Shown here one piece after another: positions 2,232 through 38,565 of a stretch of 41,627 nucleotides of DNA; the stretch's first letter is position 1; each line of letters begins with the position of its first letter. The stretch covers positions 1 to 41,627 of the IMG/VR virus record IMGVR_UViG_3300036804_000040; one strand, given 5' to 3'. A program made the position numbers and the translations under genes. A model generated the notes under the pieces. That model was given only the letters and a program-made list of their open reading frames with translations, was not told the origin of the DNA and made no database searches. This stretch comes from a virus.

Positions 2232-2234
2232 ACT

Positions 2235-4400
2235 TTGCCAGAAATACCGCGCGAGTTAGAAAAGACGGCAATTACGGATCAGGAAATATTTTTAGAGTGC
2301 GCGGAGCGGTTGCGCATTGCGACGGAAGCGGAAAACGAAAACCGCGCGAAAGGAATTGAGGCGCTTGAGTTTCGCGACGGGATGCAATGGCCCGATGATT
2401 TATACAATCAGCGCAAAATTGACCGGCGTCCATCGCTAGTTATCAATCATACGAATACTTTTGTTCGCCGCGTAGTAAACAACATGCGCCAGCAACGGCC
2501 GCGCATCAAGGTACACCCGGTAAGCGATGGGGCTAACGTTGCAGTTGCCGGCGTTATTTCCGGCTTGATTCGCCACATTGAGAACATCAGTAACGCCTCA
2601 ATCGCGTATGACACGGCCGGCGAATCTGCCGTAACGATTGGTTGGGGTTACTGGCGTATCTGCTCCGATTTTGTCGAGGATTCCATGGACCAGGAATTAC
2701 AGATAAAACCGATACGCAACCCTTTCACTGTTTACTTTGATCCCTCTAGCGTGATGCCGGCCGGCGAGGATGCCGATTGGTGCATCATCACGGAAAAGAT
2801 GAAGCGCGAGGATTACCGGCGCGAATATCCGAATGCGGAAAATATCGAATTTCAGCGCACGGGTAACGGCGATGAAATGAGCGAATGGGAAAGCAAGGAT
2901 GAAATACGCCTAGCCGAGTATTACCGCATTCGCAAAGTCAATGACACGCTGTACAAGATGTCCAACGGCATGGCGCTCTATCAAGATCAGATAGACAAGC
3001 TCAAGCCGGAACTTGCCGCCGCAAAAGTCACCATAGCGCAGGATTCGGCCGGCAAGGATATTAAGCGCACCGCCACGCGGCAAAACGTTGAATGGTACAA
3101 ATTGAACGGGCGCGCAGTGGTGGACAAGCGCGCCAAAGGCGCGGACCCGCTGCCGGATAAGTGGATACCCATTATCCGCTGCGAGGGCAACGTACTCGAT
3201 CTTAATGGCCGCATCCATCGCAAGGGCATGGTTGCGGATTTGATGGACCCGGCGCGCATGTATAACTATTGGCGCACCATGGAAACGGAGCTATTGGCCC
3301 TCGCGCCAAAGGCGCCGTTTATTGTGGCGGCTGGCCAGTTGGACGGACATCCAGAATGGAAGGATGCCAATCAGCGGCCCTATTCGGCGCTTGTGTACGA
3401 GCCGGTATTTTTAGAGCAGCCAGACGGCAGTAAGCAGTTACTCCCGCCGCCGATCCGCATGCAGCCGATACCGGTGCCGGCGGGCGCCGTGCAAGCGGCG
3501 CAAGGCGCGCAGCAAGATCTAATGGCAGTTGCCGGCATGCCGCATGATCCGGTTGCGGATGTGCCGGGCGCGGCCATTTCTGGCGTGGCACTGGCCCGCC
3601 GGCAAGCGCTTAGCGATATCGGGCACTTTCAGTTTTATGATAATCAGACGCGCGCGATTAGCCATACCGGGCGCGTGTTATTGCAGCTGATCCCGTTTTA
3701 CTACGATACGCAGCGCATGCAGCGAATCATTGGGGAAGACGGCGTGCCGTCCATGGTTGGCGTCAATCAGCCGATGCCCTCTAGCGATGGTACGGCGGTA
3801 ATGACGGTTAAGAATGATCTAACAACCGGCCGTTATGATGTCGTTATGGACACCGGTCCCGGCTATGAGACTAAGCGCATGGAGGGCGCGGAATCGATGA
3901 TCGAATTGCTTAAGACCCCGCTAGCGGAACCCATCGTCAAAGTGGGTTCCGATTTGGTGGTGCGCAATATGGATTTTGCCGGCGCATCGGATCTTGCCGA
4001 CAGATTGGCGCCGCAGTCACCGCAAGGCATGCAGCAATTAATCGCGAACTTGCCGAAAGAAGCGCAAGGCGTGGTGCAAAACCTGATGCAACAAAGCCAG
4101 CAGAAAGACGCCACCATTGCGCACTTGCAATTGGAAATTAAGTATAAGTCCGCCATAGAGCATGGCTGGCAGCAAGTGGAACGCGAAAAGACGCTATCCA
4201 AGTCTCACGAGACGCAAGTCAAAGCGGAAACGGCGCAAATCGATACGCACGTAAAAGCGACCACCGCGCTACATGTTGCGGAAATAAATCAGGCGGGCAA
4301 GTTACTCGACACGCACGCGGAAGCGGCGCATGAAACAGTAGCGCGGCGCGAAACACTCGCCGCCGCAGAGAGAGCCGAGAAGCCTAACGGCGCGGCTTAA
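2235..4400 (+). CDS. Portal protein (P22 gp1-like)
   Basis: 721 residues, close to P22 gp1 (725). It forms the dodecameric ring through which DNA enters and leaves the capsid. The N-terminal region has the P22-portal pattern FRDGMQWP (near 46-53), followed by RPSLVINHTNTFVRRVVNN and RPRIKVHPV. The C-terminal quarter is rich in Gln, Ala and charged residues and predicted helical, consistent with the long barrel helices of P22-type portals. It starts with TTG three bases after the terL stop. The assignment rests on length, N-terminal motifs and position. Confidence 0.93.
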   Translation: MPEIPRELEKTAITDQEIFLECAERLRIATEAENENRAKGIEALEFRDGMQWPDDLYNQRKIDRRPSLVINHTNTFVRRVVNNMRQQRPRIKVHPVSDGANVAVAGVISGLIRHIENISNASIAYDTAGESAVTIGWGYWRICSDFVEDSMDQELQIKPIRNPFTVYFDPSSVMPAGEDADWCIITEKMKREDYRREYPNAENIEFQRTGNGDEMSEWESKDEIRLAEYYRIRKVNDTLYKMSNGMALYQDQIDKLKPELAAAKVTIAQDSAGKDIKRTATRQNVEWYKLNGRAVVDKRAKGADPLPDKWIPIIRCEGNVLDLNGRIHRKGMVADLMDPARMYNYWRTMETELLALAPKAPFIVAAGQLDGHPEWKDANQRPYSALVYEPVFLEQPDGSKQLLPPPIRMQPIPVPAGAVQAAQGAQQDLMAVAGMPHDPVADVPGAAISGVALARRQALSDIGHFQFYDNQTRAISHTGRVLLQLIPFYYDTQRMQRIIGEDGVPSMVGVNQPMPSSDGTAVMTVKNDLTTGRYDVVMDTGPGYETKRMEGAESMIELLKTPLAEPIVKVGSDLVVRNMDFAGASDLADRLAPQSPQGMQQLIANLPKEAQGVVQNLMQQSQQKDATIAHLQLEIKYKSAIEHGWQQVEREKTLSKSHETQVKAETAQIDTHVKATTALHVAEINQAGKLLDTHAEAAHETVARRETLAAAERAEKPNGAA

Positions 4401-4449
4401 GTAGTTGGGTTTGAAAAGTTTAGGCGCTTAACTGCGCAGAGGATTCCTT

Positions 4450-7448: not shown

Positions 7449-7802
7449 ATGCCAGGCAGCGCCACCGCATTACGCGGCAACAATATTTTTATGCAGTCCC
7501 TCTATGTCGCTTTGGTTGCGGTGCCCGCCACTGTGACCGCAAGCGATACCGTCAATAGCACGCTGACAGTTAACGGCGTGCAAGTGGGGGATCTTGTAAT
7601 AGCGAATTTGCAATCCACCACGGCAGGGCTTTTCATTGCCGGCGCTTTTGTCAGCGCGAATAACACGATTACCATTCAATGGGGTAACGTCACGGTTGCG
7701 GATATCACCGCCACCGCCGCGCAACCGGTCCAATTCGCAATTCTGCGCCCCGAAAACGTCGCGGAAAGCGGTCAAACCGCGCTGCCATCCACGGTATTTT
7801 AA
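7449..7802 (+). CDS. Putative structural protein (117 aa)
   Basis: 117 residues with beta-strand-rich, Thr/Val/Ala-rich sequence (for example VNGVQVGDLVIANL and AGAFVSANNTITIQWGN). The pattern 'GDLVxxN... AGIxIxGAxVSAxNTxxIxxxN' is common in small phage structural proteins encoded after the coat gene. ATG start with an AGGAG ribosome binding site 9 bases upstream, directly after the 7400-7435 terminator. A capsid-decoration role is possible but not proven. Confidence 0.6.
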   Translation: MPGSATALRGNNIFMQSLYVALVAVPATVTASDTVNSTLTVNGVQVGDLVIANLQSTTAGLFIAGAFVSANNTITIQWGNVTVADITATAAQPVQFAILRPENVAESGQTALPSTVF

Positions 7803-7803
7803 A

Positions 7804-8139
7804 ATGGCACGCTCGCGCCATTTCACTACGGTGAACGGAACCCCGGTAGCCACGCAACTAGTAAGCGCATCGGACTTTATCGCGGTGTTTGCCACCAATG
7901 CCGAAGATGCCGCCTATTACATCAAGCTTTGGTGGTCCGGGAATTCCAGCGCCGCGCCGGTTGTCGGCACTACGCATCCAAGTCTTACTATTCCCGTGCC
8001 CACCGCCGCTACCGGATTATCACTGACATTCCCACTGAATAACGGCGGCAATCTTTATTGGTGGGCGACGTTAGCGCAAGGCGACGCGGACGCAACCGCG
8101 CTTACCGGCGGTGATGTCATCACGTTTGTTTACGATTAA
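7804..8139 (+). CDS. Hypothetical structural protein (111 aa)
   Basis: 111 residues starting MARSRHFTTVNG. The open frame extends upstream over the previous gene, but the ATG at 7804, one base after the previous stop, is the natural start. The sequence has aromatic-rich beta segments (AAYYIKLWWSGN, NLYWWATLAQGD). Its stop overlaps the ATG of the gp4-like gene by one base. The position between the coat and connector genes suggests a head-completion or decoration role. No family is recognised. Confidence 0.6.
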   Translation: MARSRHFTTVNGTPVATQLVSASDFIAVFATNAEDAAYYIKLWWSGNSSAAPVVGTTHPSLTIPVPTAATGLSLTFPLNNGGNLYWWATLAQGDADATALTGGDVITFVYD

Positions 8140-9125
8140 TGGCAAGCACGGCGCTTGATATCATTCAAGGCGGGCTACTCAATCTTAATTCGTATAGCCC
8201 TGGCGAAACATTAAACCCCGCTGATGCCAATGTAGGCTTAAGCGCGTTGAATGATTTGCTTGAGTCCCTCGCCAATGATGAATGCTTCATGTATACCCAA
8301 ATGGAAACCATTTTCCCTTGGGTAGCGGGCCAGTATCAGTACAGCGTTGGGAACCCTATCGGCGGTAAGTTCTTAGGTACCGTGACCGGCGCCTCTAATG
8401 TCATCACTGGCGTGACATCGATCCCAGCTGATTTAAAGATCGGCGCCACCATCACAGATAATCAAAACGTGATCCCGCAAGGGACCAATATCGCGCCGTT
8501 TCCGAATCTTGTAACCGCATTCGATCCTGTCGCGCAGACGGTTACCTTTAGCGCGCCCGCCACTGCGACCCCCGCCATTAATCCCGATCAAATAACGTAC
8601 ACGGTCCCGGGGGATATTCCCATCGCGCGCCCGTTGCGTTTTCGTGATGGCTTCACGCGCGCCAATTCGAGCGGCGGAAATTCTAATCTCGATTACACAT
8701 TCGAGATGATTTCATTTGACCGCTACAAAGAAGAACTGCTTAAAAACGTACAGGGACCATGGCCCTATGTGGCGGCGTACCAGCCTAATTTCCCATATGG
8801 CCAGCTGTACGTTTATCCGGCGCCAGGCTCAGCCTATACCGGGCACATCTTCACCGATTTCATTATTACCGCTTATGCGGACACATCAACTTTTTACGCC
8901 TTGCCGCAAGGCTATTCTCGCGCGTTGAAAAAGTTGCTGGCGCTTGAGCTTGCGCCAATCTTCGGCAAAGTGCCTAGCCCACAATTGATTATGCAGGCAA
9001 AGGAAGCCAAGGATTTAATTAAGGGGACCAATGATACCCCGGTAGTTACGCTGCGCTTTGATTCCGCATTGGTGCGAACGCAAGTCAATGATGCCGGCTG
9101 GATCATACGCGGCGGGTTCTATTGA
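8139..9125 (+). CDS. Head-to-tail connector, P22 gp4-like tail accessory factor
   Basis: 328 residues. The N-terminal ~75 and C-terminal ~170 residues resemble P22 gp4: an ALDIIQGGLLNLNSYSPGE start, a GLSALNDLLESLANDE helix, and a C-terminal PQGYSRALKKLLALELAPIFG helix. P22 gp4 has only 166 residues. The extra length is mainly an inserted beta-rich domain at about residues 77-155 carrying VIPQGTNI, similar to an insert in the next gene. In P22, gp4 binds below the portal and starts tail assembly. It starts on a TAATG overlap and abuts the gp10-like gene. Confidence 0.8.
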   Translation: MASTALDIIQGGLLNLNSYSPGETLNPADANVGLSALNDLLESLANDECFMYTQMETIFPWVAGQYQYSVGNPIGGKFLGTVTGASNVITGVTSIPADLKIGATITDNQNVIPQGTNIAPFPNLVTAFDPVAQTVTFSAPATATPAINPDQITYTVPGDIPIARPLRFRDGFTRANSSGGNSNLDYTFEMISFDRYKEELLKNVQGPWPYVAAYQPNFPYGQLYVYPAPGSAYTGHIFTDFIITAYADTSTFYALPQGYSRALKKLLALELAPIFGKVPSPQLIMQAKEAKDLIKGTNDTPVVTLRFDSALVRTQVNDAGWIIRGGFY

Positions 9126-10847
9126 ATGTATCAAGGGGACGATTTTGGCTTTGTAGGTCCATCCTATGAAGCGCCGATGGTATTGCAGGATGCACAGCGC
9201 CTTATCAATTGGTACATAGAGCAAGACCCAAACCCCTATGCCAAGGAAGCGCTTGCGCTCTTAGGATGTCCGGGACTAAATCCGGTGGTAAGCACCACTA
9301 ACGCGCAAGTGCGCGGTATGTGGGTTCTCCCCGGATCGGCCGGCGCGTTGGTGGTCGCAGGTAACAAAGCCTACCTGATGACTATTACGGTCCCCGCAAC
9401 GCAGACATCGATTCCACAGTATGCGGTTTCTCAAGTGGGCACGCTGCTCACCAATTCCGGCCCGGTCACGATTCGCGATAACGGCGTATTGCAAAACGGC
9501 TTGGGCGGCTTCGCGGTAATTGTCGATGGGCAATTTGGCTATTACTACTTGCTTTCCGGTGCGCCGCAAACAGTGGTTTTTGGTGGCAGTTTAAGCATTG
9601 GTAGCCCTACGATTACCCTGCCGATGCTATTGCCGGCGGGGCTGCTCGTATCATCGGCGGCAACTCTGACAGACACGGGCGGCGTGATCCCCGCAGGGAC
9701 CACCATCGCATCAATTGACACGATTGGACTCACTATCACCATGTCGGCGAATGCGACGGGTAATAGTTTTACCGACACGATTACGCTAAATATTCCCATC
9801 TTCGGGCAAATCACGGACCCCGGATTCTTGGGCGCGCAGCGCATCGCATTTATTGAAGGCTGGCTAATCTTCAATGAGCCAGGCACGCGGACTTTTTATA
9901 CCACGGGGCCAACGCCGTACACACTGCTATTCCCGGGGTTGTTCTTCGCGCTGAAGGATTCGAGTACCGATAACCTCATTACGTTGTTCGAGAACAATCG
10001 CGAAGTCTGGTTAGTCGGCGAGCGCACATCGGAAGTATGGTTTAACGCGGGTGGGGCTAACTTCGCCTTTCAACGTATCCCCGGCGTGGGGCCGCAAATT
10101 GGTTGTGCTGCGGTCAATTCGATCACGCGCACGGGCGCCGCCTTGATGTGGCTTGCCAGGAATGAGCAGGGCCAAAACGTTGTAATCATGACGAACCAAT
10201 ACTCTTTTACGCGCGTGAGTACGCACGCAATAGAGCATGCCATAGCAACATATCCCGTTGTCGATGATGCGATTGGCTACGGGTACGAGGAAGACGGGCA
10301 TTTATTTTATATGCTCACCTTCCCAACGGCCGATGCTACTTGGTGCTTTGATTTAACGGCCGGCGTATGGCATCAGCGCGCGAGTTTTTCCGGCGGCATC
10401 TTTCATAGGCACCGCTCAAATTGCTTTATGGACTTTGGCGATGTGCGCCTAGTTGGGGATTACCAAACCGGGCAAGTGCATCAGATGTCACGCATGATTT
10501 ATTCCGATGCCGGGAACCCGCTGGTATGCGTGCGGCGCACGCCGCATTTATGGAACAAGGCTAACCGCGAACGGGTTTTCCATTCGCAATTGCAGATTGA
10601 GTTTACCCCCGGCGTAGGGCTGCAAACGGGCCAAGGGCAGAACCCGCAAGTAATGCTTAGATGGTCCGATGATGGGGGCTTTACGTGGAGCAATCAGCAC
10701 TGGACCACCATAGGCGCCGCCGGGCAGACAAAGAACCGCGCCATATGGCGCCAGCTGGGCCGCGCGCGCGATAGGGTCTATGAGGCTTCTTTTAGCGATC
10801 CGGTAGCGCGCGACATCATCGGCGCAACGCTGTACGCGGATAGGTAA
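9126..10847 (+). CDS. Packaged-DNA stabilisation protein, P22 gp10-like
   Basis: 573 residues (P22 gp10 has 472). The opening QDAQRLINWYIEQDPNP and the following GCPGLNPV with a GMWVLPG strand are typical of the gp10 family, a beta-propeller that plugs the tail tube. The C-terminal half has propeller-like repeats (VWLVGERTSEVWFNAGG, MLTFPTADATWCFDL, DVRLVGDYQTGQVHQM). An insert at about residues 150-222 carries VIPAGTTI and resembles the insert in the preceding connector. Its ATG follows the previous TGA with no gap. Confidence 0.85.
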   Translation: MYQGDDFGFVGPSYEAPMVLQDAQRLINWYIEQDPNPYAKEALALLGCPGLNPVVSTTNAQVRGMWVLPGSAGALVVAGNKAYLMTITVPATQTSIPQYAVSQVGTLLTNSGPVTIRDNGVLQNGLGGFAVIVDGQFGYYYLLSGAPQTVVFGGSLSIGSPTITLPMLLPAGLLVSSAATLTDTGGVIPAGTTIASIDTIGLTITMSANATGNSFTDTITLNIPIFGQITDPGFLGAQRIAFIEGWLIFNEPGTRTFYTTGPTPYTLLFPGLFFALKDSSTDNLITLFENNREVWLVGERTSEVWFNAGGANFAFQRIPGVGPQIGCAAVNSITRTGAALMWLARNEQGQNVVIMTNQYSFTRVSTHAIEHAIATYPVVDDAIGYGYEEDGHLFYMLTFPTADATWCFDLTAGVWHQRASFSGGIFHRHRSNCFMDFGDVRLVGDYQTGQVHQMSRMIYSDAGNPLVCVRRTPHLWNKANRERVFHSQLQIEFTPGVGLQTGQGQNPQVMLRWSDDGGFTWSNQHWTTIGAAGQTKNRAIWRQLGRARDRVYEASFSDPVARDIIGATLYADR

Positions 10848-10850
10848 GCC

Positions 10851-11189
10851 GTGGCGCAGTTCCGCACGGTTCCTACCTTTACCCAAGCGTGGACCCCGGG
10901 CAATAAAAACGATTCTTATTGGTACCGTTACTTTCAAGCGGCTGAGGAAGGGCAACCACCTTCCGGTGAACTGCCGATTACCGTGCAAGGTTCGCCCTTT
11001 ACGTTCACGGCTACAAAAAAAGGCTTCGTGGTTATTTCTGGCGGCACGGTCACAAGTGTGATGTTTAGCCGCACGCCAGGCACTTTTTATTTGATGGGCA
11101 CAACCGCCGGGGCTTTCCCCATGGCGCAAAACGACATGCTCAAGGTTACCTATACCGGTATGCCGGTAATGACGTTTGTTCCCACATGA
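10851..11189 (+). CDS. Hypothetical tail-associated protein (112 aa)
   Basis: 112 residues; beta-rich with TFTATKKGFVVISGGTVTSVMFSR and a C-terminal YTGMPVMTFVPT. GTG start 3 bp after the gp10-like gene. It occupies the place where P22 has its tail-needle gene gp26, but it lacks the long coiled coil of gp26 and is half its length, so it is not called a needle. Its sequence suggests a small beta-sandwich. Stop overlaps the next ATG (ATGA). Confidence 0.55.
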   Translation: MAQFRTVPTFTQAWTPGNKNDSYWYRYFQAAEEGQPPSGELPITVQGSPFTFTATKKGFVVISGGTVTSVMFSRTPGTFYLMGTTAGAFPMAQNDMLKVTYTGMPVMTFVPT

Positions 11190-11476
11190 AAGACGAAACA
11201 TATTTATTGGAACTGATCTTGGGCCAGCTGGAACGCCTCAATAGACAAATGGCGGATTTGCTTTGCTTGCAAAAGCTTCAAGGGTTACGAAATGGAAAAT
11301 CAGATAATCCCGCAGTGGGATCAATTCCCGGAATTAAGCTGGAAGGAAAAGATAGCGTTCTTAACGTACCAATTCCTACAGCTGCCGCAAACCCCGTGCC
11401 CTGTGACGCACACTTGGGAATCAGGTTTGTACATCCGGGAAATGGTGATCCCGGCGCAGACATTGTTCCTTGGTAG
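11186..11476 (+). CDS. Small coiled-coil ORF overlapping the next gene
   Basis: 96 residues. The first ~35 are a good amphipathic helix (LLELILGQLERLNRQMADLL). The start is coupled to the previous gene by ATGA, and without this ORF there would be a 102-bp gap in an otherwise gapless operon. The last 60 residues overlap the cupin-like gene in another frame and look less protein-like (Gly/Pro/Asn-rich). Either a genuine overlapping pair or a short gene that lost its stop. Confidence 0.45.
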   Translation: MKDETYLLELILGQLERLNRQMADLLCLQKLQGLRNGKSDNPAVGSIPGIKLEGKDSVLNVPIPTAAANPVPCDAHLGIRFVHPGNGDPGADIVPW

Positions 11477-11786
11477 GGCGCATCGCTTAGGGCACCGCTG
11501 CGAATTAGTTTCCGGTTCACTCATACAAATTCTGCCTGATAAAAAAATCCTCTTTGATAAGCCGCATGAAGTCACAACGGAACCAGGATTCCACATGGTT
11601 GTATTTGCGTTAACTGATGTAGTGGGGCGCACGTACCATCCGAACCCGTTAGGAATTACCGACACGGACCTATTAGAGGATTCGATCTTTGAACCTGTGG
11701 CGGACTTGGAGCGCTTAGGCTTTCAAATCGCGGTGAACCGCAACATGTACCGTAACTTAGAGGGCGCGGAAGCGCTCAACGCATGA
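11292..11786 (+). CDS. Cupin-like phage protein
   Basis: 164 residues. The central region has the cupin pattern seen in a group of phage proteins: HTWESGLYIREMVIPA, then GRAHRLGHRCELVSGSLIQIL (near 60-80, with the HxHxxH-like element partly replaced), then a PGFHMVVFALTDVVGRTYHPNP strand pair. ATG start with AAGGG 7 bases upstream. It sits where P22 encodes gp14 and is of similar length, but homology to gp14 is not claimed. Possible roles are virion structure or small-ligand binding; neither is demonstrated. The stop overlaps the ATG of the first ejection protein. Confidence 0.65.
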   Translation: MENQIIPQWDQFPELSWKEKIAFLTYQFLQLPQTPCPVTHTWESGLYIREMVIPAQTLFLGRAHRLGHRCELVSGSLIQILPDKKILFDKPHEVTTEPGFHMVVFALTDVVGRTYHPNPLGITDTDLLEDSIFEPVADLERLGFQIAVNRNMYRNLEGAEALNA

Positions 11787-12550
11787 CCGGCGTAGCTTCC
11801 GCGATAGGCGCCGCCGCAGTGGTTGGTGCCGGGGCTTCTATTTACTCCGCGAATCAGCAAGCCGGCGCCGCGAAGAACGCGCAGTCACTCGCGTACCAGC
11901 AGCAACAACAAAATATTGCCCTCGAACAGCCTTACAACAATGCCGGCGTTGAGGCTACGGGGCAGTTGCAAAACCTCTTAGGGCTGGGCACCGCGCCCGC
12001 ACCGGGCACGGCCGGCGCCTCTACCTTCGGCAGCCTTAATCAGCAGTTCAACGCGGATGATTGGAAGCAACTAAGCCCAAGCTATGGCTTTCAGTTACAG
12101 CAAGGGCAGCAAGGCGTTTTAAATCAGGAAACGGGAACCGGTGCGCTATCCGGCGCCGCGCTCAAAGATCTCACCAGTTTTAACCAAGGGCTTGCGAGTA
12201 CGTCATTTAATAATGCTTTCAATATGTACCAGCAGCAACAAAACCAGACTTACTCACGCCTTGCGAACCTGGCGAACTTGGGCCAAAACGCGGCGAGCAT
12301 GACGGGCCAGCAAAATACCTCACTTGCCGGCACGCAAGCGCAAGCGGCGCAGAACATCGGCACGGCGAACGCGGGCGGTGCGGTTGGCGTGGCTAACGCC
12401 TTGGGCGGCGGTGCGACTAATGCCGCGATGTGGGCGCAGTATGGCGGCGGCGGTGGGGGGACTGGCTTTGTTCCGAACGATTACGGCACGCCAGAAGTTG
12501 ACCCCGGCTTACCTAGCACCATTCCGCTTAACTTGAATATTCCGAGTTAA
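11783..12550 (+). CDS. DNA ejection protein 1 (P22 gp7 position)
   Basis: 255 residues (P22 gp7 has 229). It starts with a hydrophobic Ala/Gly helix (ASAIGAAAVVGAGASIYSA) followed by long Gln/Asn/Ala-rich helical sequence with many QQQQ runs, and ends in a Gly-rich tail. This composition is typical of ejectosome proteins that leave the capsid with the DNA and form a channel across the cell envelope. It is the first of three such genes, in the same order and sizes as gp7, gp20 and gp16 of P22. Confidence 0.8.
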   Translation: MTGVASAIGAAAVVGAGASIYSANQQAGAAKNAQSLAYQQQQQNIALEQPYNNAGVEATGQLQNLLGLGTAPAPGTAGASTFGSLNQQFNADDWKQLSPSYGFQLQQGQQGVLNQETGTGALSGAALKDLTSFNQGLASTSFNNAFNMYQQQQNQTYSRLANLANLGQNAASMTGQQNTSLAGTQAQAAQNIGTANAGGAVGVANALGGGATNAAMWAQYGGGGGGTGFVPNDYGTPEVDPGLPSTIPLNLNIPS

Positions 12551-12556
12551 AAAACC

Positions 12557-14086
12557 ATGGCTGACGGACTAGGCGGGATAACTCCAGTTGCGGCGCAAGT
12601 CCAAGCGCCAGACGTTACCGGCACGCTTAACTCCATTCTTGGCATTCAAAATAAAAAACAACAGCTGGCGATTCAGGCGCAGACATTACAGCAGCAACAA
12701 TTCGCCACCGCGCAGACGCAAGGCTTAAGCGATTTTTTTAAATCTTGGAATCCGCTAGACCACATTGCGCCAGACGGAACCACCGACATGGACGCGGTAC
12801 ACCAATCCGACGCATACAAAAATGCGGGACTTGCCAAACCGCTGATTGACGAACAGCTGCAAAAGATCACTAGCGGGCAAATCAAAAATAAAACTGACAT
12901 GATGAGTCTTGGCCAGCAAGGCTTAGGCGTTGTCGGCGGCGTGGTGGGCCGGCTGGCTACTGATCCTGATGTAGTTGCCGGCAATGAAAACGGGCGCACC
13001 AAAGTTAACCAAGCGCTAGCGGATATCGCGACGCAGTTCCCCGCCGCGAAGCCGCAAACCGAAATAATGCGCGCACATATAAACCAAATCGATCTAGCCA
13101 AAAATCCCAAGGATTTGGGCCGCTCCGTATTCCAAGCTCAGTTGCAGGGCCAAGACGCGGCGAAGCAATTAGAAATAACCAAGCCGGGCGGCGGCTCCGT
13201 ACAGACGGACAAAGGCGTACAGCAGATAAACTTAAACCCGTACGCGGCGCAAGGCGTTGGAACCACGGTAGGCGAGGCAGTAAAAAATGTGCCAGCGCCG
13301 GGGATTGTTACCTTGCCTGGCGGATCGGTCGCGCGCACCGCTGGCAATACCGCAACGCCGCTTACCGTTACGGGCGGCGCGGGGACTGCGGCGGCACCGC
13401 CGGGCAAGTTGCAGCCGATCCAGCAACCGGACCAAAACGCGCCCGAAGCGGCGCAGACGCGCTACAAGCAAATAACCGCCGACAGTACCAAGCACGTGCA
13501 AGATGTGAGCGCGGCGGCAAATGACATACAGAACGGCGTTGCGGCTTCGCGCTATCGTAACGGCGAGATTATCCGCCTAACCGACGTCGCGCCAACCGGT
13601 CCCGGCAAAGAGACATGGAACCATATCGCATCACAGTTCCCCGGCGAGAGTGGCACGGCATATCAAAAGATCGGGCATTACCTTGCGCAAAGTAGCGCCG
13701 CTATCGCCAACAAAATGGGAGTGCCAAACACCAACATGGGCGCAGAGACGGCGGCGGCGAGTGCCGGCAATACTGCGCAAAATCCTGGCGCCATCAAAGA
13801 AATTACTAAGGTTAATGATGCGCTGAATACTGGGCTTGATTTGTATAACCGTGGATTAGCGAAAGCCACTAACAACGGCGCCGATACCAGCAAAGTACCG
13901 GCATTCCGCCAGGCATGGGGCCAGAACTTTGATGTAAACGTGATGCGCTATGACGATGCGGTGAGGCGTGGCGATAAAGCAGAAATAGACGCACTTAAAA
14001 CCAAGCTGGGCGCAGACGGATTAAAGCGGCTGGGCGCAGAGCGCAAGGTATTACATTCACTGTCCGAAACCGGCGATTTGCCATGA
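12557..14086 (+). CDS. DNA ejection protein 2 (P22 gp20 position)
   Basis: 509 residues (P22 gp20 has 471). Gln/Ala-rich helical N-terminus (LAIQAQTLQQQQFATAQTQ), then a Gly-rich GLGVVGGVVGRLA segment that may insert in membrane, and a helical C-terminus. It starts 6 bp after the first ejection gene and ends in an ATGA overlap with the third. The call rests on composition, size and order. Confidence 0.75.
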   Translation: MADGLGGITPVAAQVQAPDVTGTLNSILGIQNKKQQLAIQAQTLQQQQFATAQTQGLSDFFKSWNPLDHIAPDGTTDMDAVHQSDAYKNAGLAKPLIDEQLQKITSGQIKNKTDMMSLGQQGLGVVGGVVGRLATDPDVVAGNENGRTKVNQALADIATQFPAAKPQTEIMRAHINQIDLAKNPKDLGRSVFQAQLQGQDAAKQLEITKPGGGSVQTDKGVQQINLNPYAAQGVGTTVGEAVKNVPAPGIVTLPGGSVARTAGNTATPLTVTGGAGTAAAPPGKLQPIQQPDQNAPEAAQTRYKQITADSTKHVQDVSAAANDIQNGVAASRYRNGEIIRLTDVAPTGPGKETWNHIASQFPGESGTAYQKIGHYLAQSSAAIANKMGVPNTNMGAETAAASAGNTAQNPGAIKEITKVNDALNTGLDLYNRGLAKATNNGADTSKVPAFRQAWGQNFDVNVMRYDDAVRRGDKAEIDALKTKLGADGLKRLGAERKVLHSLSETGDLP

Positions 14087-16337: not shown

Positions 16338-18269
16338 ATGACTACAGCTTTTCTCGCCCCAAATGCCGTTTTTCGCGCTGTGGGCGGGGATGGCTTGGCT
16401 TTGGTTGGCGGGCAACTCTTTACATATGCGGCGGGGACTACTACCCCCATTGCCACCTATACGGACAATACCGCCGGCACGCCTAACACCAATCCTATTA
16501 TTTTGAATTCGAGGGGCGAGGCTAATGTTTGGATACTGCCGAACGTCGGTTACAAGTTCCAACTTGAAGACGCAACGAGCAACATTATTTGGACAGTTGA
16601 CCAAATCTTTAACTCACAGCTTCTTACCCTTTTCGGCGGGGTCGATACTGGATCAGCTAATAATTACATCCTTACATTTTCAACGCCGTTTACGAGTTAC
16701 ACCAACGGCGAAGTAATTTACTTCATTCCGTCATTTACCAATTCCGGGCCATCTACCTTAAACGTTAATGGTCTAGGCGTAATTCCGATTGTAAATATCA
16801 ACGGTACGCCGTTGGGCGCCGGGCAAATCACTGCCGGGCAAACCACGCAAGTGATGTATTACAACGGGTCTTTCCAGCTGCTTAGCATTGGCTCATTTAC
16901 TGGCGTAACCATTGGCACATTTGGCGCGGAAGCGCCGATAGCGAGCGCAAGCACCACGGATCTAGGAACGCTGCCGGCGCATGTCGGACTCATTACCGGC
17001 ACTAACACAATTACGAGTTTTGGAAACTCCGCGAATACTTCCGCGCCTATTTATCACGTGCGCTATACGAGTGCGCTAACCGTTACCTTCAATGCGGTTT
17101 CTTTGATCCTGCCGGGCAATGCCGACATTGTGACGCAACCGGGCGATGCGATGATTTTGCAGTACCTTGGCAACGGCAATTGGAAGTGTACCTTTTACCA
17201 AACCACCACCGGATCAGGCGGCGGCGGACAAAATTCCAAAATCAAGCCGGCTGACACGGTACTAATCAGTACGTCCACGCTGACACCGGACCCGGACTTG
17301 CAAAGCAATATGCTAGCGCTGGGCCGCTATTCCTATGCGCTCTATTTGGTTTTTGATTCGGTGAGCGCTGGCGCCGGCTTTAAGTTCACGAATGACGGCA
17401 GCGCAACGGACTCGCGCGGCTTTGTCCCGGGCTTAACCAGCGGTTTTATAAATAACCTTGCCTATGGCCCGAAGTCTGAAACTTTCTATGGCGCCACGGT
17501 TGTATATCCAACCGTATCTACTGCAATTGACGGCAATCAGGTTCTTTATACCGGATCAATCCTGGTAGGGGTCCCCGGCACGTTTGGAATCAGCTGGGCG
17601 CAAAACGCAAGCACGGGATCGGCTACCACGCTGCGCGCCGGCAGCTATCTAATTCTTACGCTGCTATCGACTGGCAGTAGTCAGAACGTCATCACGCATG
17701 TTTATTCGACCCCCGGAACATTCGTAGAAACAATTCCCACAGGCTTTACAACCGCAACTATTGAAGTGTGGGGCGGTTCAGGCGGCGGCGCTGCAAAGTT
17801 TGTATCGGGTCCAAACACTGCCGGCGGTGGCGGTGGCGCTTCGGGTAGCTACGCCGTGTCTACTTATTCGGTCACGGGGCTTGGTGGAGACACGCTTAAT
17901 TTCACCGTAGGCGTTGCCGGCGTAAATGGAACCGGCCCCGGCGGCGATTCATCGGTGAGCAGCGGCACCATGACTATAGCCACCATGACCGGCCCGGGCG
18001 GCCCCAATGGCAGCAACGCGGTAAGCCCTGGCGTGGGCGGTGCGGGCGGCGTAGCGCCGGCAATCGGGACCGGCGGCACGGTCAATAACGTGCAAGGCAA
18101 TGCCGGCAGCGCTGGCGCTTCCTTCGGCGGTGGTCCGCCAATCGGCGGCAATGGTGCCAACGGCATCCCCGGCATAAACGGCGGCGGAAACAGCGGCGGA
18201 CACGGCGCCGGCAATGCCGCGCTGACAGACGGCGGCGTTGGCTTCGTCATCTTCTCTTACTCACCTTAA
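16338..18269 (+). CDS. Tail fibre protein 1
   Basis: 643 residues. Residues about 8-75 form a domain shared with the next gene: NGLALVGGQLFTYAAGT, TPIATYTDNTAG, NPIILNSRGEANVW and a WTVD end; this domain probably attaches the fibre to the tail. The middle is beta-rich. Residues about 450-643 are a glycine-rich adhesin-like domain beginning STPGTFVETIPTGFTTATIEVWGGSGGG, resembling the protein at 20270-20875. The Gly-rich end probably forms the receptor-binding tip. ATG start after a 70-bp gap following the minus-strand gene. Product name is inferred from domains and position. Confidence 0.8.
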   Translation: MTTAFLAPNAVFRAVGGDGLALVGGQLFTYAAGTTTPIATYTDNTAGTPNTNPIILNSRGEANVWILPNVGYKFQLEDATSNIIWTVDQIFNSQLLTLFGGVDTGSANNYILTFSTPFTSYTNGEVIYFIPSFTNSGPSTLNVNGLGVIPIVNINGTPLGAGQITAGQTTQVMYYNGSFQLLSIGSFTGVTIGTFGAEAPIASASTTDLGTLPAHVGLITGTNTITSFGNSANTSAPIYHVRYTSALTVTFNAVSLILPGNADIVTQPGDAMILQYLGNGNWKCTFYQTTTGSGGGGQNSKIKPADTVLISTSTLTPDPDLQSNMLALGRYSYALYLVFDSVSAGAGFKFTNDGSATDSRGFVPGLTSGFINNLAYGPKSETFYGATVVYPTVSTAIDGNQVLYTGSILVGVPGTFGISWAQNASTGSATTLRAGSYLILTLLSTGSSQNVITHVYSTPGTFVETIPTGFTTATIEVWGGSGGGAAKFVSGPNTAGGGGGASGSYAVSTYSVTGLGGDTLNFTVGVAGVNGTGPGGDSSVSSGTMTIATMTGPGGPNGSNAVSPGVGGAGGVAPAIGTGGTVNNVQGNAGSAGASFGGGPPIGGNGANGIPGINGGGNSGGHGAGNAALTDGGVGFVIFSYSP

Positions 18270-18275
18270 AACCCT

Positions 18276-20273
18276 ATGGCATCAGCTGGACTATCACCGC
18301 CCCCGAAATTTCGCGGGGTGGACAATAACGGCTTAGCGTTAGTTGGCGGGCAGCTATTCACGTTCGCGGCCGGCACTTCTACGCCGCTCGCCACTTATGT
18401 GGATAGCTCCCACACCACGGTCAATACCAATCCCATCATTTTGGACTCGCGCGGCGAGTGCAATTTATGGCTAGACACCACGCTAGCTTATAAGTTGGTG
18501 CTTGAGGATTCCGCCGGCAATCTGATTTGGTCCGTGGATGAAGTGACGTCCGGCGGATCGGGCGGCGGCGGGACATTGGTCGCGCCCGTCACCTTGGGTC
18601 CGCCGGCATTCGCCGCTACTACGCTTACCCTACTTAACTTTGCCGGATCAGACGGGCTAGACATTGTGCCGTTTCTCTCTGGCGGCATCGCAATCAAAAT
18701 CAGCGGCTCAATTCCTGGCGCGCTAGACGGCGTTTTTGTCGGCAATACAAACCCCGGCGCTACAGCGATTACCCAAGGGGTAGTAATTGGCAATGATACT
18801 GGGCGCACTTTTAATTTAGGAAAAACCTCAAGCCTGTTTAGCGGGGCATTTATCGCCAACGGGCCAACCGGCGAAATTTGCTTTATTCAAGCCGGCGGAC
18901 AGATTCCGATTGTTTTTGGCAGCGGCTCGACTACTAATGTTTTTATTGACGGCCAGGGCGGGGTAACGATTAATGCGCCGCAAGTGGCGCAATCCGCGCT
19001 AAATGTTTTGGGCTTCGCCAATCAAGCGGCAGTCAATGCGATTGGAAGCGGCGCGAGCGGTACGGCAATCACCGCGCAAGGATCTAATCTTCTAGGCACT
19101 AGCTCCAGCCACTTCAATACGATGGCTGGAACGGTCACCATGACTGGCCCGGTAACCGGGGTTACTTGCACCATTGACGGGCCATCTAGCAGCGGAACGG
19201 CGTTGCAGGTTTCAGGCTCGCAATTGGTTGGCACTCCCACGGGCGGGGACAAGGGCGCCGGTTCCATTAATGCGGTCAGTTTGTTTGTAAACGGCATTGC
19301 GGTTTCTACCGCTAATCTTTTGCCGCTTAATAACACTTGGACCGGCACCAATACATACACGCCTGGCAGTGGCATCGCGATTACTGCAAACGGCGTTGCC
19401 GGTTCCGATACCGTAAAAATCATTGCGCCAAATAGCGCCGGCAATAGTTTTGGGCTGGTAATTCAAGCTGGCACTAATGCTAGCGATTTCGCGCTAGTCG
19501 TTAATAATGCTTCCGGGTCGCAATCGTTTTTTACTATCGGGGGAGACGGGCACTTTAGTTTAGGTCCGGTAACTAGCGGTGTAAATGCGATTACATGCAC
19601 GGTCAACGGAAATGTTGCCATACAAATTCCGGCAACGGGAACGCCGCTCACAGTTCTAGGCTCAACTAACGCAATTGCGGCGGTAATTGGTTTGCTGACA
19701 ATTACTACCGGCGCATCGCTGGTTAACGGCACCGCAGAACTTCTATCTGTGGGCCAGGCTTTAAACTTGGGCACTACAAGCTCAAGCCCCGTTGGACTAT
19801 ACACAAGCGCATTACAGCGCATAGCAATCAATGCCGCCGGCAATATCACAATTAACACGCCTAGCAGCGGCACCGCTCTCACCGTCAACGGCGTATCAGG
19901 CACGCATAGTACGCAAATAGCCGACAGTGCCACCGCGCTTCACAACGCGGGATATTTGGAAGTTCCGCAAAACAATGTCAATCCGCCTTACACATTAGTT
20001 CTCGCTGATAGCGGTAAACACATATTAAATAATTCAGGCGGTGCCGGTACTTATACAATTCCTGCTAATGCATCTGTCGCATATCCGTTAGGGACCGTGC
20101 TAACTTTTTGTTGCATCGGCGCGGCAACAATGTCGATTGCAATAAACACAGATACGCTTGTACTTGCCGGGACATCCACCTCCGGGACGCGCTCACTTGC
20201 AGTTAATGGTATAGCTACTGCAATTAAAGTTGCTTCGACGCAATGGCAGATTAGCGGTCCAGGCTTGTCTTGA
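18276..20273 (+). CDS. Tail fibre protein 2 (paralogue of the previous N-terminus)
   Basis: 665 residues. Residues 14-82 repeat the attachment domain of the previous gene (NGLALVGGQLFTFAAGT, TPLATYVDSS, NPIILDSRGECNLW, IWSVDE). The remaining ~580 residues differ: a long repetitive beta region rich in Gly, Thr, Ser and Asn with recurring ALTVNG / AVNAIGSGASGTAI units, like trimeric beta-helical fibres, and a C-terminal LVLADSGKHILNNSGGAGTYTIP element. Two fibres sharing an anchor suggests both dock at the same tail site or form branched fibres. Confidence 0.8.
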   Translation: MASAGLSPPPKFRGVDNNGLALVGGQLFTFAAGTSTPLATYVDSSHTTVNTNPIILDSRGECNLWLDTTLAYKLVLEDSAGNLIWSVDEVTSGGSGGGGTLVAPVTLGPPAFAATTLTLLNFAGSDGLDIVPFLSGGIAIKISGSIPGALDGVFVGNTNPGATAITQGVVIGNDTGRTFNLGKTSSLFSGAFIANGPTGEICFIQAGGQIPIVFGSGSTTNVFIDGQGGVTINAPQVAQSALNVLGFANQAAVNAIGSGASGTAITAQGSNLLGTSSSHFNTMAGTVTMTGPVTGVTCTIDGPSSSGTALQVSGSQLVGTPTGGDKGAGSINAVSLFVNGIAVSTANLLPLNNTWTGTNTYTPGSGIAITANGVAGSDTVKIIAPNSAGNSFGLVIQAGTNASDFALVVNNASGSQSFFTIGGDGHFSLGPVTSGVNAITCTVNGNVAIQIPATGTPLTVLGSTNAIAAVIGLLTITTGASLVNGTAELLSVGQALNLGTTSSSPVGLYTSALQRIAINAAGNITINTPSSGTALTVNGVSGTHSTQIADSATALHNAGYLEVPQNNVNPPYTLVLADSGKHILNNSGGAGTYTIPANASVAYPLGTVLTFCCIGAATMSIAINTDTLVLAGTSTSGTRSLAVNGIATAIKVASTQWQISGPGLS

Positions 20274-20890: not shown

Positions 20891-21133
20891 ATGGACATGG
20901 ATCGCGCAGTAGTAAAGATCGCGCAAGACCCGGCAACATGGGGCGCGGTGCTAATGGGAATCTTGAGCCAGATAGCGCCGGTCTTACCGGACCTGTTAGC
21001 CAAGCTAGGGCTGCATGCCGGCACGGTTCAATGGGTAGGCGGGGTCTTTGCCTTGATTATTGCGGGGCTTCGCGTCTTCTCAATCAAGAAAGAAGCGGCA
21101 GCGGTTGACCCGCCGCCGCCAACGGTAACCTAG
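20891..21133 (+). CDS. Small membrane protein, holin candidate
   Basis: 80 residues. A short amphipathic N-terminus with [22 protein letters not shown] is followed by a clear transmembrane helix, [18 protein letters not shown] (about 47-64), and a charged, proline-rich C-terminus. AAGAGG ribosome binding site 9 bases upstream. Position at the end of the late operon, after the fibres, is common for lysis genes, but no endolysin is recognisable next to it. It overlaps the convergent csrA stop by 4 bp. Confidence 0.6.
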
Positions 21134-21306
21134 CCTGCCTGTTTTTCTTCCTGAATTTTGTTATAGATTTCTTCACGGTGGACCGTGACGTTAGGCGGCG
21201 CGCTTATGCCTACGCGCACTTGTCTGCCATTAACTCCCATGATGGTTACTGTAATCCCGTCCCCGATAATCAACGACTCACCTACTCGCCTTGTCAGAAT
21301 TAACAT
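21130..21306 (-). CDS. csrA: Carbon storage regulator CsrA/RsmA
   Basis: 58 residues beginning [16 protein letters not shown] and continuing with [20 protein letters not shown] and [11 protein letters not shown]. This is a full-length, unmistakable CsrA (E. coli 61 aa), with the RNA-contacting LTRR of strand 1 and the VHREE of strand 5 both intact. CsrA dimers bind GGA motifs in mRNA leaders and repress translation or alter stability. It is the last gene of a minus-strand operon after the triple-HTH gene, separated by 17 bp. It probably rewires host mRNA regulation in the lysogen or during infection, or controls phage mRNAs; this is inference. Confidence 0.95.
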
Positions 21307-22786: not shown

Positions 22787-23842
22787 ATGGCGACGGTAGT
22801 AAAACGAGGTTCTAAGTTCCGCGCGATAGTGCGCAAAGGGGTCGCGGTTCCCCTCACAAAAACCTTTGACACGCGCAAAGAAGCCCAAGAATGGGGCGAT
22901 TCGCAAGATGTTCAAATCACGCAGCGCGCGAAGTTTGGCTGCGCTCATAAACTGGGCGAGATAATTCAGAAGTTCTCCGCGCACTTGCTGGAAAAGCGGC
23001 CGTATAAATCGGACGTCACGGAAACGCACTTGCGCATGTTGGCGCGCAATTTCTCGCATGTAGACATTGCCAGCATTGACGCGGATTGGTGGATCAAAGC
23101 CGTTGAGGGGTTCAATGTTGGCCCGTCCAGCGCAAAGCGTTACATCGGGTATGTAAAAAGCGCGCTGAAATTGGGCGAAGTTAAATGGGGGGTTTCCGTC
23201 GATTGGGACGGGTACCGCAAGGCGCGCGCGCAAATGGATCAGGTCAATATGTGCGCGGACTCCGAAGCGCGCGATAGGCGCTTAGAGCCGGGCGAACTGG
23301 AGCGCATCAAGGGCCAGTTTAAGACCGTGTTTCCCATGGGCGACATCGTAGACTTTGCGCTTTTAACGGCGCTTCGCTTGAACGAACTTTGCACTATCAA
23401 ATGGGAAGAACTGGACCGCGAACAGCGCATGATTTGGGTTCGCAGCCGCAAGCACCCTAAAAAGAAGATGACTAATCATTCCCATTTGCCGCTGCTGGGC
23501 AACGCGCTTGATATCATCATGCGCCAGCCGCGCCGCGTCCAGGCGGACGGCACGCCAGAACCGCGCATCTTTCCGTTTAACTCGCGTTCCGTTGCCGATG
23601 CCTTCCGCGAAGCCTGCAAGCGTGCGGAAGTTAAAAACTTTCATTTTCACGATTTGCGGCATGAAGCGATCAGCCGGCTATTTGAGCAGGGCTTCGCAAT
23701 TCCAGAAGTTGCGTTAGTTTCAGGACATCGGAACTGGAAAAACTTGCAGCGCTACACGAACTTGAAACCGCACAATATTCATAATGGCCCGATGGCCCAC
23801 CGCGAGAACGTGCTTAAGTTTCAGCGCAAGGCGGCAGCATGA
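22787..23842 (+). CDS. int: Tyrosine integrase
   Basis: 351 residues. The N-terminal part (about 1-65) is an arm-type/AP2-like DNA-binding region, 66-150 a SAM-like core-binding domain, and 165-351 the catalytic domain. Active-site residues are in place: Arg197 (LTALRLNEL), a hairpin lysine near 222-227, His288 and Arg291 (HDLRHEAISR), His314 (SGHRNW) and nucleophile Tyr323 (LQRYTNL). ATG start with AAGGAG 9 bases upstream. It catalyses site-specific integration and, with an excisionase, excision. Stop overlaps the next small gene (ATGA). Confidence 0.95.
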   Translation: MATVVKRGSKFRAIVRKGVAVPLTKTFDTRKEAQEWGDSQDVQITQRAKFGCAHKLGEIIQKFSAHLLEKRPYKSDVTETHLRMLARNFSHVDIASIDADWWIKAVEGFNVGPSSAKRYIGYVKSALKLGEVKWGVSVDWDGYRKARAQMDQVNMCADSEARDRRLEPGELERIKGQFKTVFPMGDIVDFALLTALRLNELCTIKWEELDREQRMIWVRSRKHPKKKMTNHSHLPLLGNALDIIMRQPRRVQADGTPEPRIFPFNSRSVADAFREACKRAEVKNFHFHDLRHEAISRLFEQGFAIPEVALVSGHRNWKNLQRYTNLKPHNIHNGPMAHRENVLKFQRKAAA

Positions 23843-37199: not shown

Positions 37200-37243
37200 A
37201 ATTTTTAGCCGCGCTTTTTGCCGCATTGGGAAAAGCGCTATGA
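37196..37243 (+). CDS. 15-residue hydrophobic peptide with a strong ribosome binding site
   Basis: MKFLAALFAALGKAL, read from an ATG preceded by AAGGAGGG, one of the best Shine-Dalgarno sequences in the window. It overlaps the previous stop and its own stop overlaps the next gene (ATGA). It may be a real amphipathic micropeptide or mainly a coupling device that brings ribosomes to the next gene. Confidence 0.45.
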   Translation: MKFLAALFAALGKAL

Positions 37244-37755
37244 AAATAATCGAAGGCATGAAACAAATTAAAGATCTAAGTATCAAGGCGAGCGATTTGC
37301 GCGATAAGGTGGGCAAGTTCTGCGCAGACTTGAGCATTGAGACGCCAACATACCCGGACGGCAAGGCGCAAATAGCCGAATGGATACAGGCGCACCATGA
37401 CATCTTGAAGGAAATTCTGCGTCTTCGCGTGGCGATCCAGAAGACCAACATTGCCACTGATGTGGCGATCTTGATTGACGGGCAAACGGTTACCAAACCC
37501 ATTGCTGCATGGATTCACCGCCGCAGGGATTTGGCTACGCTTGATATGAATATGTGGCAAAAACTCTCTGATAGGGGATTGAAGGAACAAAATCTGCAAA
37601 CCGCGCAAGGCGGCACGGTTACAGAAGTAAGGATACGGCGCTATTTCGATCCGGTTGAAAGGGATAAAAAGCATGAACTTTATAGGAGTGAGCCGGCGCT
37701 GATCGATGGCACGTTAGAAGTTACCAACGCTGTCACCGATCTTATAGAGGGTTAA
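37240..37755 (+). CDS. DIP1984-like hypothetical protein
   Basis: 171 residues, helical. KIIEGMKQIKDLSIKASDLRDKVGKFCADL at the N-terminus, HHDILKEILRLRVAIQKTNIAT (about 50-71), PIAAWIHRRRDLATLDMNMW and the C-terminal ALIDGTLEVTNAVTDLIEG match the layout of DIP1984-type proteins, a four-helix family of unknown function in bacteria and phages. Translation is coupled to the 15-residue peptide. Confidence 0.6.
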   Translation: MKIIEGMKQIKDLSIKASDLRDKVGKFCADLSIETPTYPDGKAQIAEWIQAHHDILKEILRLRVAIQKTNIATDVAILIDGQTVTKPIAAWIHRRRDLATLDMNMWQKLSDRGLKEQNLQTAQGGTVTEVRIRRYFDPVERDKKHELYRSEPALIDGTLEVTNAVTDLIEG

Positions 37756-37853
37756 TTTTGGGGTCCGACGCACAGAGTAAAACTGGAAAGGATAGAACGC
37801 CTCACATGCGTAATGTGAAATTTGTAAACATCATCTTGAAAATGATGAACCCT

Positions 37854-37928
37854 GGCGGGTTAGCTCAGCGGTTAGAGCTATGCACTTTAATGCGTAGGTC
37901 ACAGGTTCGATTCCTGTATTCGCCACCA
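37854..37928 (+). tRNA. tRNA with 6-base anticodon loop (apparent anticodon UUA)
   Basis: Full cloverleaf: acceptor GGCGGGT / ATTCGCC (37854-37860, 37918-37924), D-arm GCTC/GAGC, anticodon stem ATGCA/TGCGT (37880-37884, 37891-37895), T-arm ACAGG-TTCGATT-CCTGT (37901-37917), discriminator A and encoded CCA (37926-37928). The anticodon loop is CTTTAA, six bases. It equals the usual Lys loop CTTTTAA minus one T. Counting from U33 the anticodon is UUA, which would read the stop UAA; counting as a damaged Lys tRNA it would be UUU minus a base. An extra T-A pair (37879/37896) extends the stem. Only tRNA in the genome. Confidence 0.85.
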
Positions 37929-37994
37929 TGTAAATAAAGTCTTAAGCCTTAAGGTGTAAGAGTGGACAGGTTCAAAAATTATCAAGGTTGCAAG

Positions 37995-38411
37995 ATGAAA
38001 GCGCGCAAGGCTGGGCCGGTCAATCGGCAAAATCCTGGCTCGCCAGTTAGAACTTCTATCGCTATCGGTCTGTACAGGCTTCCCGTTGCGGGCGGACTTC
38101 CTTTGATGACAATCGATGAAATTGCAAGCCATGAGAAAGACTCGCGCAAATGGCTGCGCACTTGGACTTGGCACGTTCACTTAATCGCAATGTGCGGCGT
38201 TTGGAATGTCGCCTTTTTTGTTTGGGATTACGTGCGTAGCTACGATCTTTTAATGTTGGCAATGCTGGCGCTATTTATCGTCAATGCGATTAATTTTCGT
38301 ACCGCGTGGCGCTGGCGGCGCTTTTGGAAACATCAATATATTTTTTGGAGTAAACATCATGCCTTTATTCGAGGTTGCAATTTTGAGAATGCCGACAAAA
38401 AAGGAAATTGA
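37995..38411 (+). CDS. Two-helix membrane protein
   Basis: 138 residues from the ATG at 37995 (AAGG 7 bases upstream); GTG 37962 and ATG 38106 are alternatives. Two transmembrane segments: WHVHLIAMCGVWNVAFFVWDYV and LLMLAMLALFIVNAIN, then a basic Trp-rich stretch FRTAWRWRRFW. The last ~17 residues overlap the next gene. The upstream ~35 residues are less protein-like. Function unknown. Confidence 0.5.
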   Translation: MKARKAGPVNRQNPGSPVRTSIAIGLYRLPVAGGLPLMTIDEIASHEKDSRKWLRTWTWHVHLIAMCGVWNVAFFVWDYVRSYDLLMLAMLALFIVNAINFRTAWRWRRFWKHQYIFWSKHHAFIRGCNFENADKKGN

Positions 38412-38565
38412 GGAAGGCGTAGGCAAGGAAGAGCTTTTATTTGGGCCAAAGTATGTGCTGGCGCGCGATGAGCAAAGCGCCGGCATTGTCGCGGTAACCG
38501 GCAAGGATGCGCCGCAGGGCTTGGACATGGCGCGCGCGGACATCCAAATCCGCCCTTTTGCGTAA
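38359..38565 (+). CDS. Conserved phage hypothetical protein (68 aa)
   Basis: 68 residues from the ATG at 38359 with GGAG 8 bases upstream; a longer frame exists but lacks this signal. MPLFEVAILRMPTKKEIEEGVGKEELLFGPKYVLARDEQSA... DIQIRPFA matches a small phage family 'MPLFEVAIikkPTKKEaEeG...lifGPk'. Function unknown; common in accessory early genes. Confidence 0.7.
   Translation: MPLFEVAILRMPTKKEIEEGVGKEELLFGPKYVLARDEQSAGIVAVTGKDAPQGLDMARADIQIRPFA

Follow-up and report, generated by a model that had tools for sequence, protein, structure and literature searches.

Bacterial YrlA (Rfam RF02553), the RNA partner of Ro60/Rsr, is a non-coding RNA with a tRNA-mimic module, and the outer helix of Y RNAs is the part that binds Ro60. 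Permuted tRNA genes, in which the 3' half precedes the 5' half and rejoining restores the cloverleaf, are known from algae and archaea. GOLLD and ROOL, two kinds of large structured RNA located near tRNAs in phages, have no known function; according to PMC12286853, many GOLLD RNAs exceed 800 nucleotides (nt), and a ROOL example measures 659 nt. Here we analysed a stretch of 41,627 nucleotides from a virus (IMG/VR record IMGVR_UViG_3300036804_000040, positions 1 to 41,627; in the following, the window), which encodes a terminase, a portal, a major head protein and an integrase and, at 37854-37928, a tRNA-like gene with a shortened anticodon loop. Comparison with related sequences makes it quite probable that this gene is a tRNA-like domain within a larger structured phage RNA (37760-38100) and not a free decoding tRNA. 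The conserved RNA of about 340 nt, shorter than many GOLLD RNAs and the ROOL example, encloses the tRNA and is located between a DIP1984-like gene and the next gene. In order, it comprises a 5' motif, small hairpins, the tRNA-like domain, a purine-rich AAG array, the hairpin Pa, the helix Pb with a CTTCC motif, and a 3' strand pairing with the 5' end.

ARAGORN identified a single tRNA in the window, on the plus strand, labelled 'tRNA-???' with the anticodon (tt), which corresponds to a loop of six bases. The Rfam tRNA model (RF00005) scored 58.7 bits for the same positions, the sole Rfam match at gathering score across the 41,627 bases. Both programs recovered a cloverleaf with standard arms; the stems ATGCA/TGCGT around the loop CTTTAA pair fully, and CCA is encoded in the gene. 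An earlier note on the window had accordingly been right in describing normal arms with an encoded CCA, a loop one base short and the only tRNA of the genome. A decoding tRNA is expected to have an anticodon loop of seven bases; that of the window copy has six. The note had further derived the loop from the lysine loop CTTTTAA by loss of one T, which is only one possible origin: over the whole tRNA the threonine-type copy of a related RNA (L040) is closer to the window copy (60 of 77 columns) than E. coli tRNA-Lys, whose sequence was typed from recall (54 of 76), and the copy in L229 is identical in 57 of 78. From its designation 'ochre suppressor or defective lysine tRNA' the defect in decoding is supported by the family, as described below, but neither the suppressor nor the lysine identity is.

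The larger RNA was defined by comparison across 44 catalogued RNAs of 276-440 nt, nearly all from uncultivated phages. In two helices with 11 pairs in total, 93.8% of the cells were paired, versus 64.2% in shuffles, and both sides had changed in 157 cells versus 42.2. The covariation score of 0.814 compared with 0.209 in the shuffles, none of 500 reached this value, and slid registers gave at most 0.153. Sequence comparison therefore gives good support to the existence of the larger RNA and to the tRNA being part of it. No Rfam 15 model was found for this RNA family, which, within a licence-limited literature library, had not been catalogued previously. Searches of the window region to E 10 for group I and group II introns, tmRNA, GOLLD and ROOL returned only the tRNA above chance-level rows; there was also no gathering-score match to GOLLD or ROOL in the window or in the family loci scanned, and for tmRNA, ARAGORN reported none in the window and the best Rfam row in the window region had 12.1 bits (E 4.7).

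The catalogue goes back to homologues of the neighbouring protein, which were found in 12 viral contigs at first and, using an alignment of these, in 48 viral contigs and seven contigs of metagenome-assembled genomes (MAGs). A clear copy of the RNA was present in 46 of the 48 viral contigs, repeat stretches and L256 included, while in the remaining two (L247 and L248) a single common stretch matched weakly to R1, a model of the 3' domain (alignment A4, built without L260, L273, L250 and L264). R1 scores the window, which is itself part of the model, at 43.7 bits at 38026-38095. Eight of the 48 were not given rows of their own: L228, which comes from the contig of L041 (L041 and L040 have nearly identical RNA regions); the repeat stretches L238, L248, L254, L266 and L267; L247 with its weak R1 match (16.5 bits), repeated by L248; and L256, whose RNA (68.3 bits) is upstream of the gene and was detected only with R1. 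Three of the seven MAG loci are among the 44 (L274-L276). In L256 the 3' domain of the RNA (213-282) precedes the protein gene, so that the gene order is not fixed.

Within the RNA, the slot of the tRNA-like domain is occupied in relatives by threonine, methionine, 'serine' or asparagine types and by trimmed, permuted or hairpin-capped copies. ARAGORN identified a tRNA in canonical order in 19 of the 44 RNAs. U33, which is needed for decoding, is absent from seven of these 19 domains, and anticodons with A34, which is unusual in bacteria, occur in four (L044, L237, L253 and L260). Two of the 19, L252 and L264, have an anticodon arm that forms a hairpin with a GNRA cap (GCAA or GAAA) and no anticodon loop, and trimmed domains are found in other RNAs, e.g., L039, L046, L239, L245 and L246. 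Loops of six bases were assigned by ARAGORN to the window copy and L264; that of L233, which was not called in its natural order, also has six. Thus, the domain likely does not decode. Selection may keep the tRNA shape and not the anticodon, in which case the six-base loop would represent drift in a non-decoding module.

This diversity also bears on the possibility that the tRNA is processed out of the transcript and used late in infection, as an ochre suppressor or as a doublet or -1 frameshift decoder. The near-canonical cloverleaf with U33 and CCA fits this explanation, as do the UUA formed by the three bases after U33 and the long in-frame openings behind some TAA genes, but relatives have unrelated anticodons in this slot, or A34, no U33 or no anticodon loop at all, and stop codon use in the window is ordinary. 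The 44 genes taken from the open reading frame list end in TGA (22), TAA (17) and TAG (5), hence UAA is neither depleted nor reassigned, in agreement with the earlier note, and the UUA of the window tRNA is not presented in a seven-base loop. In-frame openings of at least 500 codons follow three of the 17 TAA genes and one of the 22 TGA genes; in three or more of these four cases the opening is the next gene, beginning in the same frame. Neither stop use nor in-frame extensions gave a signal of ochre or frameshift decoding, and the partial readthrough of TAA stops envisaged earlier found no support. As the slot holds such different copies, neither suppression at a single codon nor replacement of one host tRNA, as had been proposed for lysine, fits, and we consider a processed decoding tRNA very unlikely. 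Neighbouring genes in the same frame, separated by a stop and a short gap, were observed at 789-4400, 11783-14086, 16338-20273 and 8139-10847 of the window, three with TAA and one with TGA stops, for example the terminase followed by the portal. Candidates for true ochre suppressors were encountered on a different viral contig, L005, where ARAGORN identified two tRNA-Stop(tta) genes (3878-3953 and 4375-4448). A remnant of an attachment site was rejected, as the integrase gene (22787-23842) is distant from the tRNA.

An assembly or sequencing error in an ordinary tRNA-Lys with the loop CTTTTAA would explain the window copy as well. YTTTAA is the commonest class of six-base loops (16 of 31 in our scan, the window counted), and the isolate Stenotrophomonas phage IME-SM1 has the same loop where close relatives are annotated with tRNA-Lys. 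However, a different six-base loop, CGTTAA, occurs in the RNA that another phage (L233, genome G019) has at this place, and in L229 the loop is seven bases long with G replacing U33. Because these independent defects differ from a homopolymer change, the short loop is not a pure homopolymer accident, and the context of the larger RNA holds at any loop length; an error is accordingly regarded as highly improbable. Seven other viral contigs, including those of Mycobacterium phage Myrna and IME-SM1, have CTTTAA loops with paired stems, and the larger RNA was found at none of these seven loci. Short loops thus also occur elsewhere, and it is the surroundings that decide the identity of the window copy. 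Myrna (L032, 836-907), L034 and L313 (431-499) represent Myrna-type mycobacteriophages with a tRNA annotated as tRNA-OTHER; the one in Myrna has the loop CTTTAA, and its array also includes a normal tRNA-Lys. In IME-SM1 (L036, 1458-1533), whose close relatives Yut3 and Moby are annotated with tRNA-Lys at that place, the short loop is possibly a sequencing error or a change in a single isolate.

In five RNAs (L049, L240, L251, L262 and L275) the tRNA-like domain is circularly permuted, with the anticodon arm, the T arm and the 3' strand of the acceptor followed by the 5' strand of the acceptor and the D arm. ARAGORN recognised none of the five in natural order and all five after the halves had been rejoined. 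Matches crossing the junction of doubled sequences were obtained for nine of 25 real regions and for none of 150 shuffles. Four of these nine are strong permuted cases (L049, L251, L262 and L275), L233 and L272 keep the canonical order and have weak acceptors, and one to three windows were obtained for L050, L236 and L243. The assignment of L240 is ambiguous, as its acceptor 3' strand has another possible pairing partner upstream, where ARAGORN reports a tRNA when given more 5' sequence. Unlike the permuted genes of algae and archaea, these copies are embedded in a larger RNA, where they alternate with non-permuted copies at the same place.

The order of the permuted copies is that of the YrlA model (T-arm, capped acceptor hairpin, D-arm). 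Over these parts four of the five (L240, L251, L262 and L275) match YrlA with, in descending order, 43.7, 40.7, 37.5 and 34.5 bits, at an E-value threshold (E 1e-6 to 5e-4 in 31.6 kb) and below the Rfam cut-off of 69, which none reaches; L049 is not matched, and in the window region, with its copy in canonical order, YrlA was absent from all rows to E 10. Alignment of the outer helix is poor in the phage RNAs, which have a different core, the AAG array and a DIP1984-like gene instead of Ro60. A TROVE (Ro60) gene was present in none of 21 RNA-bearing records, some of them possibly fragments, whereas the control genome was positive. Judged by these sequence tests, the permuted module resembles that of YrlA in shape, but the phage RNA is not a member of the YrlA family, as the scores are below cut-off, the outer helix is poorly aligned and no TROVE gene accompanies it. 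Hughes et al. suggest that the tRNA-like domain of YrlA could competitively inhibit an anticodon nuclease (PMC7790460). Similarly, the domain in the phage RNA could act as a decoy for anticodon nucleases of the host or for its other defences against tRNAs, or could sense them, and the loops, which vary among close relatives, would then reflect this conflict. As copies without a loop (L252 and L264) and with trimmed arms persist, this is unlikely, though less so than use as a decoding tRNA.

The RNA is linked to its neighbouring gene beyond the searches that started from the protein. A protein-independent scan with the 3' RNA pattern returned 11 stretches, ten of which represent this RNA and one a match in a coding region; nine of the ten are on contigs known from the protein scan and one on a new contig, and all ten contigs encode the protein. 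Among 21 terminase relatives of the window, the protein occurs in one, the R1 RNA in the same one, and neither in the other 20, so that the pair looks like an accessory cassette moving as a unit. This also concerns a role as packaging or capsid-associated RNA near terminase genes. The RNA of L040 is located about 3.2 kb upstream of a terminase match on the same contig, but 20 of 21 terminase relatives are devoid of the RNA, which behaves as an accessory cassette, and L046 has amidoligase-type genes downstream instead; we thus assign such a role a very low probability. The protein had no match in 50,697 annotated phage records (INPHARED), and in bacteria the linked gene was found in one of 199 genomes of one phylum and three of 185 of another, all four already known.

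An AlphaFold2 model of the protein matches 3kdq, a functionally uncharacterised protein from C. diphtheriae (Foldseek E 2.2e-4), with a Z of 9.7 over 149 residues and a root-mean-square deviation of 5.8, while Z values up to 9.1, over 70 residues, were also obtained for unrelated helical rows. The predicted fold is thus shared with the DIP1984 family over 149 residues, but the sequence is below the curated cut-offs and no RNA partner was found for 3kdq. A protein-sequence search of solved structures gave nothing convincing, and the best hit of a fold search against BFVD had an E of 1.9e-3. Near one DIP1984 family gene above cut-off, in a genome from a Synergistota sample, no such RNA was seen by eye. 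In three Synergistota MAGs (L277-L279), what may be a distant form of the RNA, with a closing helix and AAG/ACG heptads recognised by eye, comes after genes for distant protein relatives; these loci were kept out of the counts, as R1 misses that place and matches elsewhere in L278 (17.1 bits) and L279 (13.0 bits). An R1 match in genome G034 (contig C96, E 1.3e-4) was taken as chance, as the protein is on a different contig.

The AAG array was evaluated over 95 bases, namely the end of the stretch taken ahead of the 3' domain. The 44 RNAs contain 330 AAG there, compared with 194.7 in dinucleotide shuffles, and 174 AAG pairs 7 or 8 apart, whereas 200 shuffles gave 16.6 such pairs on average and 29 at most. 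A frequent spacing pattern is 7, 7, 7, 8, about 16, 8, 7, 8. Our guess is that the repeat provides a repeated protein contact. The RNA may bind the DIP1984-like protein, perhaps along this array, and the tRNA-like domain may recruit a factor of the host that binds tRNA (the ribosome, a modifying enzyme or a nuclease, e.g., PNPase), by analogy with the use of a tRNA-mimic module by bacterial Y RNAs. Both the binding and the target are proposals. As a tentative, somewhat less than even possibility, the locus would encode a new phage ribonucleoprotein in which the DIP1984-like protein coats the AAG array (period about 7.5 nt) and the RNA carries an exchangeable tRNA-mimic module, canonical or permuted as in Y RNA. 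Such a complex would be a counterpart of Ro60-Y RNA and would, in the infected cell, redirect either the ribosome or an enzyme of the host that binds tRNA.

Several observations weigh against a tRNA-like domain in a larger RNA. Eleven of the 19 canonical-order domains keep a seven-base loop with U33, hence individual copies may decode, and the window domain alone, with U33, cloverleaf and CCA, resembles a usable tRNA. Single-sequence folding of the window copy is unexceptional (z -1.45; 9 of 100 shuffles equally stable), a promoter scan of the region found no sigma-70-like promoter where 1.0 was expected, and the protein remains below both curated cut-offs (NCBIfam NF038048, 29 bits, E 1e-6, cut-off 70; Pfam PF20935, 21.7 bits, E 2e-4, cut-off 27). 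In addition, pairing was used to place P1' and Pb, and 9 of 44 rows were corrected by hand, which favours pairing. Therefore, the offset of P1 was re-optimised in the shuffles too, and in this control, which covers P1 only, a mean of 7.05 base pairs was obtained, versus 3.97 with swapped tails and a maximum of 4.73 in 2000 shuffles.

On the reading as a domain of a larger RNA, an apparently broken phage tRNA would be the handle on an RNA family and its linked gene, and would provide natural cases in which the tRNA shape is retained and the anticodon is dispensable, and in which a canonical tRNA fold and a circularly permuted one stand in for one another at a single site. A genetic link would be offered for the DIP1984 family, and automatic tRNA calls in phages can, as a warning, be domains of larger RNAs. 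The features of the locus are compiled in Table 1.

Table 1. Predicted features of the RNA locus and its flanking genes (window positions).
Feature	Position	Strand	Basis or remark
171-aa protein of the DIP1984/DUF6847 kind, partner gene of the RNA	37240..37755	+	Profile and fold matches
Entire conserved RNA, closed by helix P1	37760..38100	+	44 homologues; catalogued as 343 nt, 37759-38101
P1 5' strand GGGGTCCG	37760..37767	+	Pairs with 38093-38100; covariation
Conserved 5' motif ACGCACAGAGTAAAACTGGAAA	37768..37789	+	Comparison across the family
Small hairpin CTCACAT/ATGTGA	37801..37818	+	
Hairpin with 7-base loop CTTGAAA	37829..37847	+	Also present in L043 and L233
tRNA-like domain, canonical order, encoded CCA	37854..37928	+	ARAGORN, Rfam, family comparison
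6-base loop CTTTAA at the anticodon position	37885..37890	+	Sequence, ARAGORN
AAG array	37937..38009	+	AAG at 37937, 37944, 37951, 37958, 37984, 37992, 37999, 38007
Hairpin Pa GCCG/CGGC	38015..38028	+	Hairpin in 37/44 by a loose script; kept out of the evidence
Pb 5' strand CCTG	38034..38037	+	Pairs with 38075-38078
Pb 3' strand CAGG, then conserved CTTCC	38075..38083	+	
P1 3' strand	38093..38100	+	Covariation
Next gene (MPLFEV...)	38359..38565	+	Similar starts downstream of the RNA in L042 and L043

The next gene was assigned to no Pfam, PHROGs or NCBIfam family. The accessory region of the window also encodes a protein with a YspA/cpYpsA-related SLOG domain (PF10686; 36130-36549). In L046, a phage contig of 66 kb, genes resembling a COOH-NH2 ligase, an amidoligase and an aminotransferase (7676-12034) are found beside the RNA cassette. 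Finally, a phage-encoded CsrA homologue (Pfam PF02599, 86.2 bits) is located on the minus strand of the window at 21130-21306.
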